Assembly (NCBI RefSeq): GCF_033546935.1
Contig: NZ_CP137854.1
Coordinates: 3,844,001 to 3,908,000, forward strand
DNA length: 64,000 bases
Direction of reading: 5' to 3'
DNA from: Xylophilus sp. GOD-11R
GTDB taxonomy: Bacteria > Pseudomonadota > Gammaproteobacteria > Burkholderiales > Burkholderiaceae_C
Positions 34,508 through 44,008 of the stretch are shown here, in pieces (position 1 is the stretch's first letter; every line of letters begins with the position of its first letter). The position numbers and the translations under genes are program-made. The notes beneath the pieces are model-generated. The model did not search any database. It saw only the letters and a list, made by a program, of their open reading frames with translations, and was not told the DNA's origin.

Positions 34508-35389
34508 ATGACGACGACAGACACCCCTTCCACCACCCAGGCCGTCACGCCCGAACTGCGGCGGTGGATCATCGACCAGGCCGAGGCCGGCTTCGCTGCG
34601 CCGGTGATCCTGCAGGCCATGATCGACGCCGGCTGGCGCGAGGACACCGCGGCCCACGCCATGGAAGCCACCCTGCGCAGCCACCTCGCGCAGGCCACGG
34701 GCAACGGCACCGGCAGCGACATGCCGGACGGCGTCGAAGTACCGATGCCCGCCCTCGACGACTCGCCGCTCTACATCGACGTCGGCGACCGGCAGGTGCA
34801 CGTGCTGCAGGTCATGACCTCGCCTCGCGTGGTGGTGTTCGGAAACCTGCTGTCGGACGCCGAATGCGACGCCCTCATCGCCGAAGCCTCGCCGCGCATG
34901 AAGCGCTCGCTTACCGTCGCCATCAAGACCGGCGGAGAAGAGATCAACGCCGACCGCACCAGCGACGGCATGTTCTTCTCGCGCGGTGAAACACCGGTGG
35001 TGCAGGCGCTGGAGCGCCGCATCGCCGAACTGGTGCGCTGGCCGGTCATCAACGGCGAAGGCCTGCAGGTGCTGCACTACCCGCCCGGGGCCGAGTACAA
35101 GCCGCATTACGACTACTTCGATCCGACCGAACCCGGCACGCCGACCATCCTCAAGCGCGGCGGCCAGCGGGTCGCCACGCTGGTGATCTACCTGAACGAG
35201 CCGGCGCGCGGCGGTGGCACCGTCTTTCCCGACATCAACCTCACCGTCGCGCCCAAGCGCGGCAATGCCGTCTTCTTCAGCTACGACCGGCCGCATCCGG
35301 CCACACGCACCCTGCACGGCGGCTGCCCCGTCATCGAGGGCGAGAAGTGGATCGCCACCAAATGGCTGCGCGAGCGCGAATTCACATGA
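34508..35389 (+). CDS. 2-oxoglutarate/Fe(II) oxygenase, prolyl-4-hydroxylase-like
   Basis: 293 residues. An N-terminal helical domain (residues 10-60, [19 protein letters not shown]) is followed by the P4H-type double-stranded beta helix. Iron ligands are His200 and Asp202 (KPHYDYFDP) and His270 (RTLHGGCPV); Lys280 ([10 protein letters not shown]) binds 2-oxoglutarate. The segment [25 protein letters not shown] is typical of P4H-alpha-like enzymes. The substrate is unknown; bacterial members can act on proteins. The stop overlaps the queF start (ATGA at 35386-35389). Confidence 0.9.
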
Positions 35390-36246
35390 CCATCCTCGAG
35401 AGCAACACGCCCGAACATTCCCTGCTGGGCAAGCCCGCGCCTTACGCCACGCAATACGACCCGAGCCTGCTCTACCCGCTGCCGCGCGCCGGCAAGCGCG
35501 CCGAAATCGGCATCGCCGGCGAGCCGCCCTTCTTCGGCGCCGACCTCTGGACCGCGTTCGAGCTGAGCTGGCTCAACACCCGGGGCAAGCCGCAGGTGGC
35601 GCTGGCGCACATCACCGTGCCGTGCGAAACACCCAACATCGTCGAGAGCAAGTCGTTCAAGCTCTATCTCAACAGCTTCAATGACAGCCGCTTCGACAGC
35701 GCCGACGAGGTCCGCGCGCGCATCCGCGCGGACATCTCCGAGGCCGTGTGGCGCGGTGCCGCACAGGCGTCGACGGTCGGCGTCCGCCTCGTGCTGCCCG
35801 AGGAGTTCGAGCGTGAGCGGGTCGCCGGCCTGGAAGGCCTCAGCCTCGACCGCCTCGACATCGACTGCGACCGCTACACCCCGGCGCCCGAATACCTGTC
35901 GGCAGCAGTCGACGAGGCACCGGTCACCGAAACCCTGGTCAGCCACCTGCTCAAGAGCAATTGCCTGGTCACCGGCCAGCCCGATTGGGGCAGCGTGCAG
36001 GTGCGCTACAGCGGTGCGCAGATCGACCAGGCCGGCCTGCTGCGCTACCTGATCAGCTTTCGCAACCACAACGAATTTCACGAGCAGTGCGTCGAGCGGA
36101 TCTTCATGGACATCTGGAGCCGCTGCCGCCCGGTGAAGCTGGCGGTGTTCGCCCGCTACACCCGTCGCGGCGGGCTCGACATCAACCCTTTTCGCACCAG
36201 CCATCCGCAAGCCTTGCCCGGCAACGCACGCACCGCCCGCCAGTAG
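35386..36246 (+). CDS. queF: NADPH-dependent 7-cyano-7-deazaguanine reductase
   Basis: 286 residues, the long bacterial form with tandem T-fold halves. It reduces preQ0 to preQ1 in queuosine synthesis for tRNA. The QueF signature [19 protein letters not shown] is complete. The catalytic Cys/Asp pair is in [18 protein letters not shown]. The C-terminal [15 protein letters not shown] is typical. Translationally coupled to the oxygenase gene in front. No preQ1 riboswitch is apparent upstream. Confidence 0.96.
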
Positions 36247-36310
36247 CGATGCATGCGGGAAAAGCACGCCAGCACTGTGTCTTTAGACATGCTCACCCCA
36301 TGAGCCGCGC

Positions 36311-36319
36311 TGATACACT
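36311..36319 (+). promoter_or_regulatory. Extended -10 promoter of the phytochrome operon
   Basis: TGATACACT contains TG, one base, then TACACT, an extended -10 element. It lies 10 bases before the first ATG of bphO. No clear -35 box is present, as allowed for this promoter class. Transcription would start near 36326. Confidence 0.42.
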
Positions 36320-36328
36320 GATTTGTTG

Positions 36329-36958
36329 ATGTTCCACCAGCCTCCGTCAATGTCCTCCCCAACGCTGCCAATCCCGAGTCTTCCGGATTCCGCAGCGCCG
36401 GACGTACTGGCGACATTGCGCGCAGCCACCGCAGACCGGCACGCCCGGCTCGACAGCCAGCTGCCCATTGCCGGCGAAAGCGCCGGCCTTCCCGACTACG
36501 CCCTGCACCTGACCGTAGTCCGTGCGTGGCTGGCCGAAATCGACCGCGCAGCGTGGTCCGCATCCGAACTGCCGGCCGACTGGATCGCCAGCCAGCAGGC
36601 ACGTTTGCAGCGCATCGACGCCGACCTCGCGGAACTCGCGGCGCCATCGGTGCCGAATGTTCCCGGCGAACCACTTCCCGCCTCGGTGCCTTCCGGCTTC
36701 GGCTGGGGCGTGGCCTACGTCGTCGAAGGCTCCCAGCTCGGCGGCCAGATGCTGTACCGGCGCTTGCGTGAACCTCTGGCGCCACTTGCCTTGCGATACC
36801 TGCAGGGCGGCGGCATCCCGGGCGCCTGGCCTCGCTTCACCGCAGCACTGCGCGCCGCCGTCGTCACGACTGCCGGCTGCGAAGCCGCCTGCGCCGGCGC
36901 CTGCTGGGCCTTCGACGACCTCGCCTCGCGCTTCGAGGGGGCGGGAGCTTTCGCATGA
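36329..36958 (+). CDS. bphO: Biliverdin-producing heme oxygenase
   Basis: 209 residues from the ATG at 36329; MSSPTLP at 36350 is a possible shorter start. It opens heme to biliverdin, the chromophore of bacteriophytochromes. The heme-ligand region TADRHARLDSQLP and the distal-helix segment GWGVAYVVEGSQLGGQML fit the BphO/HemO family, and the length is normal. With the predicted start of transcription near 36326, the longer form would be almost leaderless; neither start has a good ribosome site. Its stop overlaps the bphP start (ATGA at 36955-36958), so chromophore and photoreceptor are made together. Confidence 0.88.
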   Translation: MFHQPPSMSSPTLPIPSLPDSAAPDVLATLRAATADRHARLDSQLPIAGESAGLPDYALHLTVVRAWLAEIDRAAWSASELPADWIASQQARLQRIDADLAELAAPSVPNVPGEPLPASVPSGFGWGVAYVVEGSQLGGQMLYRRLREPLAPLALRYLQGGGIPGAWPRFTAALRAAVVTTAGCEAACAGACWAFDDLASRFEGAGAFA

Positions 36959-39195
36959 ACGCTGCATCAGGCCACGACCAGGCCGCCCGGGTCACGCTGG
37001 AGAGCTGCGACCGTGAACCCATCCACATCCCAGGCGCCATCCAGTCGCACGGGCTGATGCTGGCCTTCGACGCCGAGCGGCGCCTGTGTTTTCGCAGCGT
37101 CAACGCCGTGGCCATGCTGAACGATGTGCCCGCACTCGGTGAAACCCTGTCGCCGCACCATCTGGGCGGCCATGTGGAAATTCATTCACTGCTGGCCGAT
37201 GCCTTCGCCACGGACGCTCGCGAAGCGCTCCTGCCGATGTCCAGCGAGATCGCGCTGCCCGGTGCCACCTACGACCTCATCCTGCACCAGTCGGGCGGGC
37301 ACCTCGTGCTCGAGCTCGAGCGGCGCGACGCCGATGCCGACGCGCTGAACAGCTTCGCGCTCAAGGCCCATCGCGCCATGGACCGGCTCAAGCGCCAGCG
37401 TTCGCTGGAGCACCTGCTGTCCATGGCTACCGAGGACATTCGCCAACTCACCGGCTTCGACCGCGTGATGGCCTACCGCTTCCGGCCGGACGAAAGCGGC
37501 GAGGTCGTGGCAGAAGCCCGTGACATGCGCCTGGAGCCCTTCCTCGGCCGGCGCTATCCGGCCAGCGACATCCCCGCCCAGGCGCGGCGGCTGTACGTAG
37601 TCAACACCCTGCGCATGATCGCCGACGTGAATTCAGCCGCCGTCGCGGTCGAGTCGGGCGATGCCGAAGGCGCGCCGCTCGACATGAGCCATGCGGTGCT
37701 GCGCGCGGTCTCGCCGATCCACATCGAGTACCTGAGCAACATGGGTGTCGGTGCATCCATGAGCGTGTCCATCGTGGTCCAGGGACAGCTGTGGGGCATG
37801 ATCGCCTGTCACCACATGACGCCGCGCCAGGTGCCGTTTTCAGTGCGCATGGCCTGCGACGTCATCGCCCAGATCCTCGCGGCCAACGTGCACACCCTGC
37901 TCGCCCGCACCCAGGCCGATCGCATCGCCGAAGCCGCCACCCTTCGCGCGCGCATGGTCGAAGACCTGCTGCACACCGACGACCCGATCAATGCACTGCT
38001 GCCGCATGTCTCGATGCTCGTGCGGCTGTTCGACGCGCATTCGGCCTTCATCGCCGAAGGTAGCAAGATCGCCGTCGAAGGCGAGGTGCCGGCCGAAATT
38101 ACGCGGGCCCTCACCCGCTGGCTGAGCCACCATCCCGACACCAATGCCTCGCTGGTCACGGTTCACACGCTCGCCGATTTTCCGGCCTACCTGCACCCCA
38201 TGCTCGACATCTGGTGCGGCATGCTGGCCCTGCGCTTCGCCCCCACGGCCGACAGCTGGCTGGTGCTGTTGCGCAAGGAGCAGGTCGAGACCATCAACTG
38301 GGGCGGCAAACCCGACAAGCACTACGGCCACGGCCCCAACGGCCCGCGCCTCACCCCGCGTGGCTCGTTCGACCTGTGGCGCGAGACGGTTCACGGCACC
38401 TCCGAACCCTGGGATGCGACGCACCTGGCCATCGCCCGCCAACTCATCGACGAAATGGGCCGCGCCACCGCCGCGCGGGTGAGCGAACTCAATCGCGCCC
38501 GCAACCAGCTGCTGGCCGTGCTGGGCCACGACCTGCGCGACCCACTGCATTCCATCAGCATGGCCGCGCGCGTGCTGGAAAAGGCCCCCGAACAGCAAAG
38601 CGGCCGCATCGGCCAGCGCATCCAGTCCTCCAGCAGTCGCATGCAACGCCTGGTGAGCCAGGTGCTCGACATGTCGCGGCTGCAGGGCGGCCTGGGCCTG
38701 GGCCTGAGATTCGAACGCACGCCGATGGCCGCACTGGTCAACGACCTGCTCGACGAAGCCGCCGTGGCGCATCCCGGCATCAACTTCGAGCGCGACCTCG
38801 ACGAGACGCTCCAGGCCGAGATCGACCCCGACCGCATGGCGCAGGTCGTGACCAACCTGGTGGGCAACGCCCGCCACCACGGTACGCCCGGCGCGCCGGT
38901 GGTGGTGCGCATGCGGGCGCAGGGCGATGCGGTCGAGCTGCAGGTTCGCAATCTCGGCGACCGCATTCCGGCCGAGTTTGCCGGCACACTCTTCAACCCG
39001 TTCAAGCGGCAGTCGCTCGGCAACGAACGCAACCGCACCGGCCTGGGCCTGGGTCTCTACATCGCGCATCAGATCGTGCAGGGCCACGGCGGCAGCATCG
39101 ATTATTCTTTCGACGAGCCGCAGGTCGTTTTCACCGTTCGCCTGCCGCTGACGCAGGCACAACACCGCGCTGACGCGCTTAAGGTCTCTCCGTGA
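36955..39195 (+). CDS. bphP: Bacteriophytochrome sensor histidine kinase
   Basis: 746 residues: PAS (about 20-125), GAF (about 140-310), PHY (about 320-500), HisKA (about 510-580) and HATPase (about 620-740). Biliverdin would attach to Cys18 (LESCDREPIHIPGAIQSHG). The PASDIP motif is at 202-207, with Asp205 contacting the bilin. The phospho-acceptor is His525 (LGHDLRDPLHS). The kinase has an N-box NLVGNARHH and a G2 box NRTGLGLGLYIA; the G1 box reads NLGDRIP, with Asn in place of the usual Asp. A soluble red/far-red light sensor, coupled upstream to bphO and downstream to a receiver gene (GTGA at 39192-39195). Confidence 0.97.
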   Translation: MNAASGHDQAARVTLESCDREPIHIPGAIQSHGLMLAFDAERRLCFRSVNAVAMLNDVPALGETLSPHHLGGHVEIHSLLADAFATDAREALLPMSSEIALPGATYDLILHQSGGHLVLELERRDADADALNSFALKAHRAMDRLKRQRSLEHLLSMATEDIRQLTGFDRVMAYRFRPDESGEVVAEARDMRLEPFLGRRYPASDIPAQARRLYVVNTLRMIADVNSAAVAVESGDAEGAPLDMSHAVLRAVSPIHIEYLSNMGVGASMSVSIVVQGQLWGMIACHHMTPRQVPFSVRMACDVIAQILAANVHTLLARTQADRIAEAATLRARMVEDLLHTDDPINALLPHVSMLVRLFDAHSAFIAEGSKIAVEGEVPAEITRALTRWLSHHPDTNASLVTVHTLADFPAYLHPMLDIWCGMLALRFAPTADSWLVLLRKEQVETINWGGKPDKHYGHGPNGPRLTPRGSFDLWRETVHGTSEPWDATHLAIARQLIDEMGRATAARVSELNRARNQLLAVLGHDLRDPLHSISMAARVLEKAPEQQSGRIGQRIQSSSSRMQRLVSQVLDMSRLQGGLGLGLRFERTPMAALVNDLLDEAAVAHPGINFERDLDETLQAEIDPDRMAQVVTNLVGNARHHGTPGAPVVVRMRAQGDAVELQVRNLGDRIPAEFAGTLFNPFKRQSLGNERNRTGLGLGLYIAHQIVQGHGGSIDYSFDEPQVVFTVRLPLTQAQHRADALKVSP

Positions 39196-39557
39196 CCCTC
39201 AATATCCTCATCGTCGACGACAACCGCGAAGCCGCCGAGCTGTTTCAGGAGCTGCTCGAAATGCAGGACTACGCCGTGCGCTGCGCCTTCACCGGCCAGC
39301 AGGCGCTGGACATGGCCCGCGCCGACCGCGCTGGCGTCTACCTGGTCGACCTGACCCTGCCCGACGTGCACGGCACCGACCTCGCGCGCCAACTGCGCGA
39401 TCTGGCGGCCGACGGCCCGGCACCCATGGTCATCGCCGTCACCGGCCTGGCCTCCGACGGCAGCGACGAAATGGCGGTGTTCGACCACTTCCTGCAGAAA
39501 CCCGTCGACTTCGAGAAGCTCGAACGCATCCTCGCCGGCGTGGCCGCCAAATCATGA
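39192..39557 (+). CDS. Single-domain response regulator
   Basis: 121 residues, a receiver domain only. It begins at GTG (39192), overlapping the bphP stop. The acidic pocket is Asp9/Asp10, the phosphorylation site Asp53 (YLVDLTLPD), the switch Thr84 (VTGLA) and the Lys is Lys103 (LQKPVD). With no output domain it probably passes phosphate on or acts by protein contact, like the Rcp1/BphR partners of other phytochromes. Its stop overlaps the next gene's ATG (ATGA at 39554-39557). Confidence 0.95.
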   Translation: MTLNILIVDDNREAAELFQELLEMQDYAVRCAFTGQQALDMARADRAGVYLVDLTLPDVHGTDLARQLRDLAADGPAPMVIAVTGLASDGSDEMAVFDHFLQKPVDFEKLERILAGVAAKS

Positions 39558-40210
39558 GCGGTACCGACGGCGCCGCGTGGTTGGCCGCTGGCGTGCGGCA
39601 CGAGCTCTTCATGCGCGTTCTGCCCGCGCTGCGCCACGACATGGCCGGCCCCCTGTCGGTCGCCCGCATGGGCAACGCAGTGCTCAAGCGCTACATCGCC
39701 GCCACGCCTTTCGACCCGGCCCAGTGCCTCAAGCGCATGGAGCAGACCGACGAGCAGCTCAACCAGCTGTTGATTTCGATCCGCACCCTTGCCCGCTGGG
39801 ACATCGAAAGCGCCGACCGCGCCACGCCCACGCCGGCCATACAGGCCGCGCTGCACCTGGCGCGCCCCATGCTCGACCTGGCCGGCGTCGTGCTGGAAAC
39901 CACCGAGATCGACGCTCCCGCCTCTTGGCCGCAGCTGCAGCCGGCGCGCACGCTCTTCATGGTGCTCGGTGTGCTGGGCTACCTGCAGGACAACGCGGAC
40001 GGCCCGAGCGCCATCACCGTCACCACCGACGGCAGTGGCCTCAAGCTGCAGTCCCGCTCCATCGTGCCAAGCCTGCCCGGCGACCACCAACCCGCGCGAC
40101 GCCAGATGGCCATCGACGCTCAGGCATTGCAATGGCTCTCCGACGACCTGCACTGGCCGGTGCAGATCGGCAGCGATCACGTCACGCTCGGCGAGCCTGC
40201 CGAGCAGTAG
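39554..40210 (+). CDS. Degenerate histidine-kinase-like protein, possible phosphotransferase of the phytochrome relay
   Basis: 218 residues with no certain family match. Residues 14-80 look like a DHp four-helix dimer: an H-box-like RVLPALRHDMAGPLSVARM with His28 followed by Asp, then a second amphipathic helix LKRMEQTDEQLNQLLISIRTLAR (in pieces). Residues 90-205 resemble a collapsed ATPase domain: VLGYLQDNADGPSAITV recalls an N-box, but no G1, G2 or F box follows. This is the plan of ChpT-like histidine phosphotransferases, which are broken kinases. It closes the bphO-bphP-receiver operon, coupled by 4 bases. Function inferred: phosphate exchange with the receiver, or a scaffold. Confidence 0.6.
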   Translation: MSGTDGAAWLAAGVRHELFMRVLPALRHDMAGPLSVARMGNAVLKRYIAATPFDPAQCLKRMEQTDEQLNQLLISIRTLARWDIESADRATPTPAIQAALHLARPMLDLAGVVLETTEIDAPASWPQLQPARTLFMVLGVLGYLQDNADGPSAITVTTDGSGLKLQSRSIVPSLPGDHQPARRQMAIDAQALQWLSDDLHWPVQIGSDHVTLGEPAEQ

Positions 40211-40270: not shown

Positions 40271-41413
40271 TCAAGCCGTTTTCTTGACCTGCCGACGCAG
40301 TTCGCGCCGCAAGTTCTTGCGGTGTTCGCGCAGAAAACCCAGCAGCCGGTGCTCGGCGACGTGCAGGCGGCGCGGCGTCTTCTGCTTGCCGGTCACGCGC
40401 TGCCAGAAGCCGAGCAGGTCGGACTCCGCGCCCCGCGCCAGCGTGGACCCCACCTCCAGCACCGCCGGGTGCACATACGACTTCTTGCAGACCGCCGGCG
40501 TGTTGCCCAACTGGCGCGCCACCTCGGCCAGCACCGCCTTGGCGCTGTAAGCCGCCTCCCCATGGCCGCCGCAGGCCAGTCGGGTCAACTCCAGGGCCTG
40601 CACGGTGCCGTGCCAGGTACGGAAATCCTTGGCGGTGAAATCCTGGCCGGCCGCCTCGCGCAGATAGTCGTTCACCTCGGACGAGCCGAGACGATGCGGC
40701 TCGCCCTCTTCGTCCTCGTACTGGAACAGCTCCTGGCCCGGCAATTGCTGGCAGCCGCGCACCACACGCGCCACCTTGGGATCGTCGAGCCGCACCTCCT
40801 GCATCACGCCGCTTTTGCCGCGAAACTTCAACGTCAGCACGCTGCCGCGTACGCCGGCGTGCGGCGAACGCAGCGTCGTCAGGCCATAGGAGCCGTTGCT
40901 TTCGGCGTACTCCTCGTTGCCCACGCGCAGGTAGGTGGTGTCGAGCAGCCGCACCAGCGTGGCCAGCACCACGGTGCGCGACGGCGCCTTTCCGCGCACC
41001 ACGCGCAGGTCGCGCGCCACCCGGGCGCGGATCTTCGGCAGCGCCCGGCCGAAGGCCTCGATGCGCTCGAACTTTCCTTCGTCGCGCAGCAGCCGCCACT
41101 GTGGGTGGTAGCGATATTGGCGGCGACCCCGCGCATCCAGCCCGGTGGCCTGCAGATGGCCATTGGCCAGCGGGCAGATCCACACCTGCGAATAGGCCGG
41201 CGGTATCGCCAGGCTGTCGATGCGGCGTATTTCCTCGGGGTCGGAGACACGCGCGCCATCGACCCGCCGATAAGCGAAACGCTTGCCCGACCGTACCCGC
41301 GTCATGCCCGGCATGAGCGGGCTGACATACAGCAGGCCGCCGGGCAGAGGCGCGGGAGCCGGCACGGTCGAAGCATCGGAAGTGGAAGCGTTGGCGCTGG
41401 CGTGCAGGGTCAT
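40271..41413 (-). CDS. DNA topoisomerase IB
   Basis: 380 residues from MTLHASANASTSDAS. Type IB enzymes nick one strand by a 3'-phosphotyrosine link and relax supercoils without ATP. The poxvirus-like catalytic residues are recognisable: Tyr313 in KKSYVHPAV, Arg/Lys segments LRVGNEEYAESNGSYGLTTL and KFRGKSGV, and the TAKDFRTWHGT His/Arg motif. The C-terminal 50 residues are Arg/Lys-rich (REHRKNLRRELRRQVKK). Bacterial IB enzymes are accessory, often acquired. The long upstream frame belongs to dinB's shadow. It lies about 100 bases after dinB on the same strand. Confidence 0.95.
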   Translation of the reverse strand: MTLHASANASTSDASTVPAPAPLPGGLLYVSPLMPGMTRVRSGKRFAYRRVDGARVSDPEEIRRIDSLAIPPAYSQVWICPLANGHLQATGLDARGRRQYRYHPQWRLLRDEGKFERIEAFGRALPKIRARVARDLRVVRGKAPSRTVVLATLVRLLDTTYLRVGNEEYAESNGSYGLTTLRSPHAGVRGSVLTLKFRGKSGVMQEVRLDDPKVARVVRGCQQLPGQELFQYEDEEGEPHRLGSSEVNDYLREAAGQDFTAKDFRTWHGTVQALELTRLACGGHGEAAYSAKAVLAEVARQLGNTPAVCKKSYVHPAVLEVGSTLARGAESDLLGFWQRVTGKQKTPRRLHVAEHRLLGFLREHRKNLRRELRRQVKKTA

Positions 41414-41514
41414 GGACGGATCACCGGCAAATGCCCAGGGTGTAGCCCCACGCCCGGCGCCGGCATGTAGGACGCCGGCATCTGCGGCAGCGGGAAGCGG
41501 CCGGTCGACGGCGA

Positions 41515-42750
41515 CTAGAACAGCGCCGGCGTATAGCCCTTCTCGAAGCCGGGAGCGGCCGCATCGGGCGTCGTCGCATCCACCTCGTCGGCCTTCACCA
41601 GCGAGCCGGCACGAACGCCCAGCAGCCGCAGCTTGCGCTCCAGCGGCACCCGCTTGAGACACTGCCCGGCCAGCCGGCGGATGCGCACCGCGTCGTCCAC
41701 CGCCACCTCCACCGTCTGGTCGCGGGTGGCGATGCGGAAATCGTCGTACCGCAGCTTGATGCCGATGGTCTTGCTGCGGTAGCCCTTCTTTTGCAGGTCG
41801 GCCGCGACCTTCTCGCACAGCGCCGTGAAGATGCGGCCCAGCTCGGCCTTGTCGCGCACCGCGTGCAGATCGCGCTCGAAGGTGGTCTCCCGGCTCATCG
41901 AGACCGGCTCGCTCTCGGTCACCACCGGACGGTCGTCGCGCCCCCAGGCGACCGCATGCATCCACGCCCCGGTCGATCGGCCGAACTGCTCCACCAGCCA
42001 GTCCGGGCTCTGCGCCGCCAGCTCGCCGATGGTGCGGATGCCGAAGGTCTCCAGCCGCGCATCCGCCTTTGGCCCGATGCCGTTGATCTTGCGGGCCGGC
42101 AGCGGCCAGATGCGCGACTGCAGGTCGGCTTCATGGACGATGGAAATGCCGTTGGGCTTTTCGAATTCGCTCGCCATCTTGGCCAGCAGCTTGTTGGGCG
42201 CCACGCCGATCGAGCAGGTGAGGCCGGTGGCGTCGAAGATCTCGCGTTGGATCAGCCGTGCCAGCACCCGGCCGCCTTCGCGCTGGCCGCCGGGAACGTC
42301 GGTGAAGTCGATGTAGACCTCGTCCACGCCCCGGTCCTCCATGCGCGGCGCGATGCCGGTGATGATGCTTTTGAAGGTGCGTGAAAAATGCCGTACCCGG
42401 TCGAAATCCACCGGCAACAGAATCGCTTGCGGACACAGCCGGGCCGCCTTCATCAGCCCCAGCGCCGAGCCCACGCCGAATTGCCGCGCGGCGTAGGTAG
42501 CCGTGGTGGCCACGCCCCGGCCGACGTAGTCGCGCAGGATCGGAAATTCGGACACCGGAATCTCGTCCAGCGGCCGCCCGTCCGCCGGAGTGACGAGCGC
42601 ACCGTCCACCGGCCGGCGCCCACCGCCGATCACCACCGGCAAGCCCTTGAGCTGAGGGTAGCGCAGCAGCTCGACCGACGCGAAGAACGCGTCCATGTCG
42701 AGGTGGGCGATGCGGCGCAGGAAAACGGGCGAAGACACGCCGGCAAGCAT
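41515..42750 (-). CDS. dinB: DNA polymerase IV
   Basis: 411 residues from MLAGVSSPVFLRRIAHLDMDAFFASVEL. A Y-family translesion polymerase. The metal ligands are in HLDMDAFF and the motif III region EDRGVDEVYIDFTDV; the conserved CSIGVAPNKLLAKMASEFEKPNG is complete (in two pieces), with helix-hairpin-helix INGIGPKADARLE. The little-finger domain covers about 290-385. The length exceeds the E. coli protein (351) because of an insertion near residue 45 (RRPVDGALVTPADG) and a tail. No LexA box was recognised upstream. Confidence 0.96.
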   Translation of the reverse strand: MLAGVSSPVFLRRIAHLDMDAFFASVELLRYPQLKGLPVVIGGGRRPVDGALVTPADGRPLDEIPVSEFPILRDYVGRGVATTATYAARQFGVGSALGLMKAARLCPQAILLPVDFDRVRHFSRTFKSIITGIAPRMEDRGVDEVYIDFTDVPGGQREGGRVLARLIQREIFDATGLTCSIGVAPNKLLAKMASEFEKPNGISIVHEADLQSRIWPLPARKINGIGPKADARLETFGIRTIGELAAQSPDWLVEQFGRSTGAWMHAVAWGRDDRPVVTESEPVSMSRETTFERDLHAVRDKAELGRIFTALCEKVAADLQKKGYRSKTIGIKLRYDDFRIATRDQTVEVAVDDAVRIRRLAGQCLKRVPLERKLRLLGVRAGSLVKADEVDATTPDAAAPGFEKGYTPALF

Positions 42751-42790
42751 AGCCGTCCGTCGGTAGCCGAGCCGACGAAAGGTGGGGCCG

Positions 42791-44008
42791 CTAGCGGCCG
42801 GCGCCCCAGAGCCAGGGCTGGTCGAGCAACCGGCCGCCGGCCAGCCGCAGTGCTGCATCGCGCCCCCAGCGCAGCGGCCCGGCCGCATGGAAGATGGTCG
42901 CCTGCCGACGCGCGCGCGATTGCACCCGGCCCACGCGTTCCCAGCGGTTGAGGGCGTAGCGGGCTAGGCACACACCCGCGTTGTCGATCTGCATGGCCAG
43001 CACGCGCTGGAGTTCGGCCGCGTCTTCCAGCGACATGGCCGCGCCTTGCGCAAGGTAGGGCAGCATCGGATGCGCGGCATCGCCGGCCAGCGCCACACGG
43101 CCCGCCGCCAGCATCGGCGGGCCGGCGACCGGATCGCGGTCGTGCAGCATCCAGCGCCGCCAGCCCGGCGCGGCCTCGACGAGCGCCCGCAGGCCACCAT
43201 GCGCACCGTGGAGCAGTTGCGCCACCTCGCCCGGACCGGCATCGGCGTTCCAGTCGGCGGGCGCTGCGACCTGCAGGCCCGGCACACCTTCGGCCAGGAC
43301 CACCAGATTCAGCAGTTCGCCCCGCCGCACCGGGTATGCCACCACATGCAACCGATGCCCCAGCCAGACCGTCACCCCGGCGTATTCGGCCCGCGAGCCC
43401 GGCGGCAAAGTCGAGCGGTCGATCAGCGTGCGCCAGGCGAAATGCCCGGTCGGTCGGGGCGCGGTGTCGGTGCCGACCACCGCACGGCGCAGCACGCTCC
43501 ACACGCCGTCGGCCACGACCAGACCGTCGCCCTCGACTTCGCAAGATTTTTCGGTCTTTCGCCACGCGAGCCGAACCACGTCGCCGCCCTGCTCCACCCA
43601 TTCGACCTCGGCGCCCAGGTGCAGCACCGCCTCCCCGCTCGCCTCGACAGCGCCGGCCAGCACGCGGTGCAAATCGGCCCGATGCAAAGTGGCATAAGGC
43701 GCGCCATAGCGCGACGCGACCTCGTCACCCAGCGGCATCGAGGCCAGCACGCCGCCATCGGATGCACTGCGCACGGCGAGCGTCTCCGGATAGAAAGCGA
43801 CCTCCTGCAAGGCATCAGCCAGCTCCCAGCCGTGCAGGATGCGGGTGGCGTTGGGCCCCAATTGCAGCCCGGCGCCCACCTCCGAGAAGAGCGGCGCCCG
43901 CTCGAACACCCGCGCCCTCCAGCCCGCGCGATTACAGGCCAGCGTAGTGGCCAGGCCGGCGATGCCGCCGCCCGCGACCAGCATCTCGCGCGCGAAAGGC
44001 ACCCTCAC
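42791..44008 (-). CDS. FAD-dependent monooxygenase (salicylate hydroxylase-like)
   Basis: 405 residues. The start is GTG at 44008, overlapping the stop of the upstream GGDEF-EAL gene (GTGA at 44005-44008). The FAD Rossmann motif is VAGGGIAGLATTLACNRAGW with the acidic FER at the second strand; the DG motif is VVADGVWSVLR, and the GD motif is VALAGDAAHPMLPYLAQGAAM. This plan matches class A aromatic hydroxylases related to salicylate hydroxylase and UbiH-like enzymes. The substrate cannot be told. Coupling to a c-di-GMP enzyme gene is unexpected. Confidence 0.88.
   Translation of the reverse strand: MRVPFAREMLVAGGGIAGLATTLACNRAGWRARVFERAPLFSEVGAGLQLGPNATRILHGWELADALQEVAFYPETLAVRSASDGGVLASMPLGDEVASRYGAPYATLHRADLHRVLAGAVEASGEAVLHLGAEVEWVEQGGDVVRLAWRKTEKSCEVEGDGLVVADGVWSVLRRAVVGTDTAPRPTGHFAWRTLIDRSTLPPGSRAEYAGVTVWLGHRLHVVAYPVRRGELLNLVVLAEGVPGLQVAAPADWNADAGPGEVAQLLHGAHGGLRALVEAAPGWRRWMLHDRDPVAGPPMLAAGRVALAGDAAHPMLPYLAQGAAMSLEDAAELQRVLAMQIDNAGVCLARYALNRWERVGRVQSRARRQATIFHAAGPLRWGRDAALRLAGGRLLDQPWLWGAGR

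Follow-up and report, generated by a model that had tools for sequence, protein, structure and literature searches.

The 64,000-nt stretch of Xylophilus sp. GOD-11R DNA analysed here (positions 3,844,001 to 3,908,000 of NZ_CP137854.1, hereafter the window) carries on its forward strand four overlapping genes encoding a biliverdin-producing heme oxygenase (bphO, 36350..36958), a bacteriophytochrome histidine kinase (bphP, 36955..39195), a single-domain receiver (RR, 39192..39557) and a protein of 218 aa called G4 below (39554..40210), a predicted phosphotransferase with H28 as putative phospho-acceptor. This operon is real and conserved, and probably encodes a relay. We consider it fairly likely that G4 is a histidine-kinase-derived phosphotransferase, comparable to Spo0B, ChpT or PhyT, that would be fed by the receiver encoded just upstream. 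The direct evidence consists of gene order, a conserved gene overlap, co-occurrence, an invariant histidine, lost ATP motifs, alternative kinase neighbours and a predicted fold. An earlier note, made from the letters of the window, had proposed a His-Asp-His relay with its final target elsewhere, dedicated to red light; the fold, the invariant histidine and the tie to the receiver support its idea about the fourth protein, while the closed red-light unit does not survive, since G4 does not serve phytochromes exclusively.

In many cases, the partner of a bacteriophytochrome is a single receiver devoid of an output domain, so that the step following light perception is often obscure. For the operon considered here, a candidate for the next carrier after the receiver can be named, and its family has been mapped. 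BphP carrying its bilin would autophosphorylate in a light-dependent manner, as known for its family, and would phosphorylate Asp53 of the receiver. From there the phosphate would move to His28 of G4, possibly a dimer, and finally to at least one response regulator whose gene lies elsewhere. The pair formed by the receiver and G4 may also be fed by other kinases, most likely by the receiver-bearing (REC) kinase of a CHASE3-kinase/CheB/CheR cluster described below, and the phytochrome would therefore be one input into a shared relay. If true, bacteriophytochrome output would be conveyed via a phosphorelay hub, rather than through a response regulator of its own.

A kinase-like protein whose ATP site appears to be lost

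G4 belongs to a family of 75 proteins, 74 of them besides the window protein and mainly from Burkholderiales, which rules out the confinement to one strain that the earlier note had considered. Its only Pfam match is HisKA (E 5e-4, under the curated cut-off). The H-box-like helix that had been read in the fourth protein is supported by its relatives: all 104 distinct rows have histidine 28 (103 distinct by sequence plus the window, from 118 loci with some genomes present twice, 3 of 121 matches having been dropped for short profile coverage), and 18 of the 26 columns that are invariant in an alignment of 39 rows lie within residues 9-46, around this histidine. No match to HATPase_c was obtained for the window G4, nor is one listed for any of the 39 members, which rules out an active sensor kinase; the N-box pattern occurs in 0/104 rows and G2 in 1/104, both motifs being found in the window BphP. 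A monomeric Hpt protein is ruled out as well, since the Hpt profile (PF01627) matches neither G4 nor any of the 39 family members, and no receiver domain was matched in the window G4. Taken together, G4 seems to have kept the phosphate-accepting histidine and to have lost the ATP site.

The AlphaFold2 model of G4 alone (pLDDT 91) contains two helices (residues 4-49 and 55-80) followed by an alpha/beta domain, which is predicted to represent a kinase-type DHp hairpin and a shrunken ATPase-like domain, as had been supposed from the letters; the lack of a DHp fold, which the earlier note had named as a refutation, did not occur. Foldseek searches with this model retrieved 71 PDB chains at E<=0.001; kinases or kinase-derived proteins make up all 50 of those listed, among them the ChpT structures 4fmt, 4fpp and 4qpj (E 9.6e-5 to 1.7e-4). 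The VIA-align matches are mostly kinases too, with 3 of 50 being other helical proteins (9vzx, 3r84, 5lcy), and Spo0B is not among the 50 matches listed in either structure search.

A protein of this type could also be a pseudokinase regulator that binds the receiver or a kinase and acts by contact, without carrying phosphate. DivL, which has a tyrosine at the histidine position, binds DivK~P, and RetS binds GacS. Such a role appears unlikely for G4, whose His28 is invariant in all rows, a constraint that pure binding does not require.

Beyond the close family, distant G4 homologues without an adjacent receiver match were seen at eleven loci (L162-L164, L166, L167, L169-L172, L174 and L175), often, where seen, near one common set of genes of unrelated function. 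A remoter group of kin (L176-L183), retrieved with profile A1, shows H-boxes such as LKHDMVVNLQ or IRHNMAGTLQP, and some of its members adjoin PAS proteins or sensor kinases. One G4 match (G190:C1:212713-213369, in L128) contains an inner TAA, meaning that this copy may be broken or that the match overruns its end.

Coupling of the receiver and G4

The tie between the fourth protein and the receiver is borne out by gene order: among the 80 best of 90 loci, 43 have RR directly upstream of G4 (neighbours being called by tblastn/blastp using the window proteins, so that diverged genes are counted as absent). Thirty of the 38 RR-G4 pairs that were measured share the 4-base overlap between both genes, and for this reason its presence in the window is not a matter of chance. 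For this count, receivers were recognised in 39 of 49 loci by a pattern that required the acidic pocket and the phospho-Asp, the conservation of these residues being thus partly by construction. Co-occurrence was followed in a sample of 399 genomes drawn from the family, using cut-offs of its own for G4 (E<1e-25, 34 genomes) and BphP (E<1e-160, 37 genomes): receiver matches at E<=1e-20 are present in 24 of these genomes, 21 of which also contain G4 (the 24 result from 27 matches minus 3 inside open reading frames (ORFs) of >800 aa, their single-domain nature being presumed). Even when both genes are separated the association may be found, as in 11 searched Variovorax genomes where G4 stands alone, 10 of which contain one orthologous receiver elsewhere; these 11 were selected from the 37 loci that lack an adjacent receiver, and 4 further loci in that search had a receiver. 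In the Xylophilus genome itself, Hpt matches occur only in two large ORFs (frames of 737 and 1915 aa, presumably CheA and ChpA), none being free-standing at E<=0.001, and this leaves room for a free-standing phosphotransferase.

This tight coupling would also suit a phosphatase or a phosphate sink that ends the signal of the receiver. Phosphatases of the HisKA type need T or N at position H+4, whereas all 104 rows of G4 carry A, G, S or V there, which argues against a phosphatase and leaves a sink untouched. DHp domains can nevertheless be phosphatases, and DrBphP is described as a light-dependent phosphatase in an excerpt of PMC12189002. On balance, we take a phosphatase or sink role of G4 to be very unlikely.

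Several observations have to be set against G4 being a phosphotransferase fed by the receiver. Profile A1, run against the PDB sequences with E values of up to 10 admitted, did not match any two-component protein, the sole row being a chance match to Cas4 (E 0.67), and the 12 Pfam families listed for the 39 members include neither a ChpT nor a Spo0B family. Foldseek ranks ordinary kinases above ChpT, and TM-scores over the G4 query are 0.32-0.46. The G1 motif is a poor witness to the loss of the ATP site: its strict pattern (D.G.G), found in 2 of 104 G4 rows, is also absent from the window BphP, and a loose one ([DN].G.[GA]) occurs in 42 of 104. Finally, the partners are not always found together. 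In 13 of the 34 genomes with G4, no receiver match reaches E<=1e-20, G315 and G373 among these 13 showing a weaker one beside G4, and bphO-bphP-receiver is present without detectable G4 in three genomes, at L122 (G328), L126 (G265) and L129 (G386), which are the three of the 24 receiver genomes that have no G4.

Comparison with known phosphorelays

The phosphotransferase reading of G4 has a well-known counterpart in Bacillus subtilis, where the phosphoryl group passes from KinA to Spo0F, Spo0B and Spo0A, that is, from a kinase through a lone receiver to a dimeric DHp phosphotransferase. The Spo0F-Spo0B pair has the relay topology proposed here, but comes from a lineage different from that of the window operon. 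Spo0B is named in excerpts of both PMC3433190 and PMC5898713.

A similar layout is that of the Pak-SdrG-PhyT-PhyR relay of Sphingomonas melonis, in which, according to the passages concerned of PMC5898713, several kinases feed the single-domain receiver SdrG, from which phosphate passes to PhyT, a protein with a conserved histidine suspected by its authors to be a degenerated kinase. As in the window, a kinase, a lone receiver and a DHp-type protein without ATPase follow one another; in contrast, this relay, likened here by its description in that source, is alphaproteobacterial, involves a membrane-bound PhyT and a known target (PhyR), and responds to stress rather than light. Caulobacter ChpT combines a DHp hairpin bearing the acceptor histidine with an ATPase-like domain that proved to contain no ATP (excerpt of PMC3433190). 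ChpT and G4 are similar in fold by structure search, although no sequence match between them was detected, and ChpT partners the hybrid kinase CckA while G4 would partner the adjacent lone receiver. If its proposed role is true, G4 would add an unnamed phosphotransferase family whose sequences show no detectable kinship with Spo0B or ChpT.

Light as one of several candidate inputs

G4 is found in 46 of the 399 family genomes with a limit of E<=0.001, which falls to 34 when E<1e-25 is required, and a close BphP match (E<1e-160) in 37, that of Xylophilus included. The view of the four genes as one dedicated red-light unit is not supported by their distribution, as bphO-bphP stand at G4 in only 4 of the 80 loci (three titled Xylophilus, one Burkholderiaceae) and the receiver can adjoin a different kinase; bphP-RR-G4 occur in a row in 9 of the 34 genomes with G4 at E<1e-25. 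At least three loci (L151, L159, L184) gave no G4 gene call. At L173 (G178, another of these 34 genomes) the same parts appear in a changed order, in which G4 precedes bphO while the receiver comes after bphP.

In part of Variovorax, a REC-kinase unrelated to the phytochrome precedes the receiver, which may or may not be accompanied by G4. This is the case in 8 of the 10 Variovorax genomes with unlinked G4 and receiver, where the receiver comes directly after the REC-kinase (those of L185 and L190 were missed by the gene caller and placed by coordinates), the receiver of the remaining two adjoining a large hybrid kinase encoded in the opposite orientation. The RR-G4 pair itself follows that REC-kinase in 9 of 118 loci. 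In the loci inspected, the surrounding cluster contains a CHASE3-GAF-kinase with three receivers (L069) and CheB/CheR-like genes, the latter recognised by eye. The Xylophilus genome has an orthologue of the REC-kinase (G000, C1:2844603-2845778) that is 65% identical to the Variovorax one, and its only close receiver of the window type is the window RR, the next one being at 38%, so that one receiver may serve two kinases. Clusters of the Variovorax type, comprising CHASE3-kinase-REC3, CheB/CheR-like genes, REC-kinase and a window-type receiver, were seen at L055, L069 and L185-L192, not every part being present in each.

The chromosomal site of the operon leads to a further question, namely whether RR and G4 have anything to do with light, or whether bphO-bphP were inserted, or are being lost, upstream of a pair to which their overlaps bring nothing except co-expression. 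The window is flanked by P4H (prolyl hydroxylase) and queF (35386..36246, forward strand) before the operon, and by topoisomerase IB-like (topIB) and dinB-like genes (40271..42888, reverse strand) after it; the names queF, topoisomerase IB-like and dinB-like are those we presume from the gene families. The same P4H-queF-RR-G4-topIB-dinB site exists without bphO-bphP in many loci, which suggests that the red-light genes are a variable part of an otherwise constant site. In L003 and L152, two Xylophilus relatives, RR-G4 remain at this site where bphO-bphP are missing, and no match to the window BphP was found in these genomes at E<=1e-40. These cases, and the REC-kinase adjoining RR elsewhere, favour a pair unconnected with light. 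Against it, the order bphO-bphP-RR-G4 is found in two more genera (g85 and g88), with no queF, topIB or dinB within the 8.7 kb examined, so that the operon seems to be at another site there. A quick tree of 97 G4 rows requires the phytochrome label to change four times, starred branches forcing two or more of these changes, and likewise speaks against a pair unconnected with light. This tree, from which rows below 60 bits are omitted, is long-branched and rooted at its midpoint, so that gain and loss of the phytochrome are not told apart. A close BphP also accompanies G4 in 16 of 34 genomes, vs 21 of the 365 others (kinship uncorrected). The absence of any link to light thus appears quite improbable.

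G4 as a relay component with several inputs leads to a broader proposal, which we put forward tentatively: RR and G4 may form a portable Burkholderiales relay, an origin of the Spo0F-Spo0B design that shares no detectable sequence similarity with Spo0B or ChpT, plugged into two unrelated sensors, the phytochrome on one side and the CHASE3/REC-kinase cluster on the other. Light and the other signal might thereby converge on one hidden response regulator. If true, the system would show how a relay pair gets re-wired to new sensors. Median dN/dS ratios (nonsynonymous to synonymous substitution rates, Nei-Gojobori) were 0.45 for solo genes, 0.47 with RR, 0.29 with the REC-kinase and 0.85 for phytochrome-linked ones, values that were set aside, as third positions in DNA this rich in G+C have probably come close to saturation.

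A second phytochrome locus and the Ramlibacter operon

The genome carries a second phytochrome operon with overlapping genes outside the window (L150, G000:C1:3956657-3965283), in the order BphP (C1:3961657-3963783), a receiver and a REC-kinase-REC gene, this hybrid gene comprising two receivers, HisKA and HATPase_c. No match to the window bphO was found in this stretch, and the window bphO may therefore serve both phytochromes. The L150 receiver aligns with PDB 5ic5 over 151/151 residues (265 bits; PDB title 'Candidate response regulator, CheY'), whereas the best PDB match of the window receiver is 3i42 (61.6 bits), 5ic5 not being in the best 60 of its 99 matches. We take 5ic5 to be RtBRR, the receiver of Ramlibacter; if so, the published Ramlibacter operon corresponds to L150.

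That operon, hmuO-bphP1-cheY-RtBHK of Ramlibacter tataouinensis, ends with an 'atypical hybrid histidine kinase' whose mutant phenotype resembles that of phytochrome mutants (excerpt of PMC6848086). It is like the window operon in its four genes, with heme oxygenase, phytochrome, receiver and unusual kinase, but it has a receiver of the RtBRR type and a hybrid kinase as last gene, neither of which the window operon contains. It appears to match L150 and not the window operon, the sequence of Rta_25490 itself standing outside this comparison. G4 as RtBHK was rejected, since RtBHK is called a hybrid kinase in the same passages and its type of receiver fits L150. The author of the earlier note knew of no described system with this fourth member; a four-gene phytochrome operon ending in an unusual kinase is thus published for Ramlibacter, but appears to be a different one. 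Phytochrome genes of Ramlibacter and 'Ca. Symbiobacter' are treated in PMC3164672 and PMC4053972, with no G4 in the passages concerned, and no title or abstract opening on the G4 family or the window operon was found in the open-licence PMC literature.

Layout of the window operon

The coordinates confirm that the four genes are coupled by 4-base overlaps, which read ATGA, GTGA and ATGA at the bphO/bphP, bphP/RR and RR/G4 junctions, respectively. The promoter is the least firm part of this description, and the single extended -10 promoter previously claimed stands only in part: a possible element TG-A-TACACT is present (36311..36319, forward strand), but this weak candidate, read from the sequence, matches 4/6 bases of the -10 consensus, without a -35, and a scan of 36180-36480 returned no two-hexamer promoter and no terminator. 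BphP has the domains PAS_2-GAF-PHY-HisKA-HATPase_c and the third gene product is a Response_reg protein with D9, D10, D53 and K103 present, in agreement with the initial reading. The start of bphO is uncertain, lying at 36350 or at an earlier in-frame TTG (36323) or ATG (36329). The identification of its product relies on the ORF, on a weak profile score (PF01126, 13.4 bits for a cut-off of 23), on a best solved structural relative, pa-HO (1sk7, E 0.012), and on gene context, as a bphO-like gene adjoins bphP in many relatives too.
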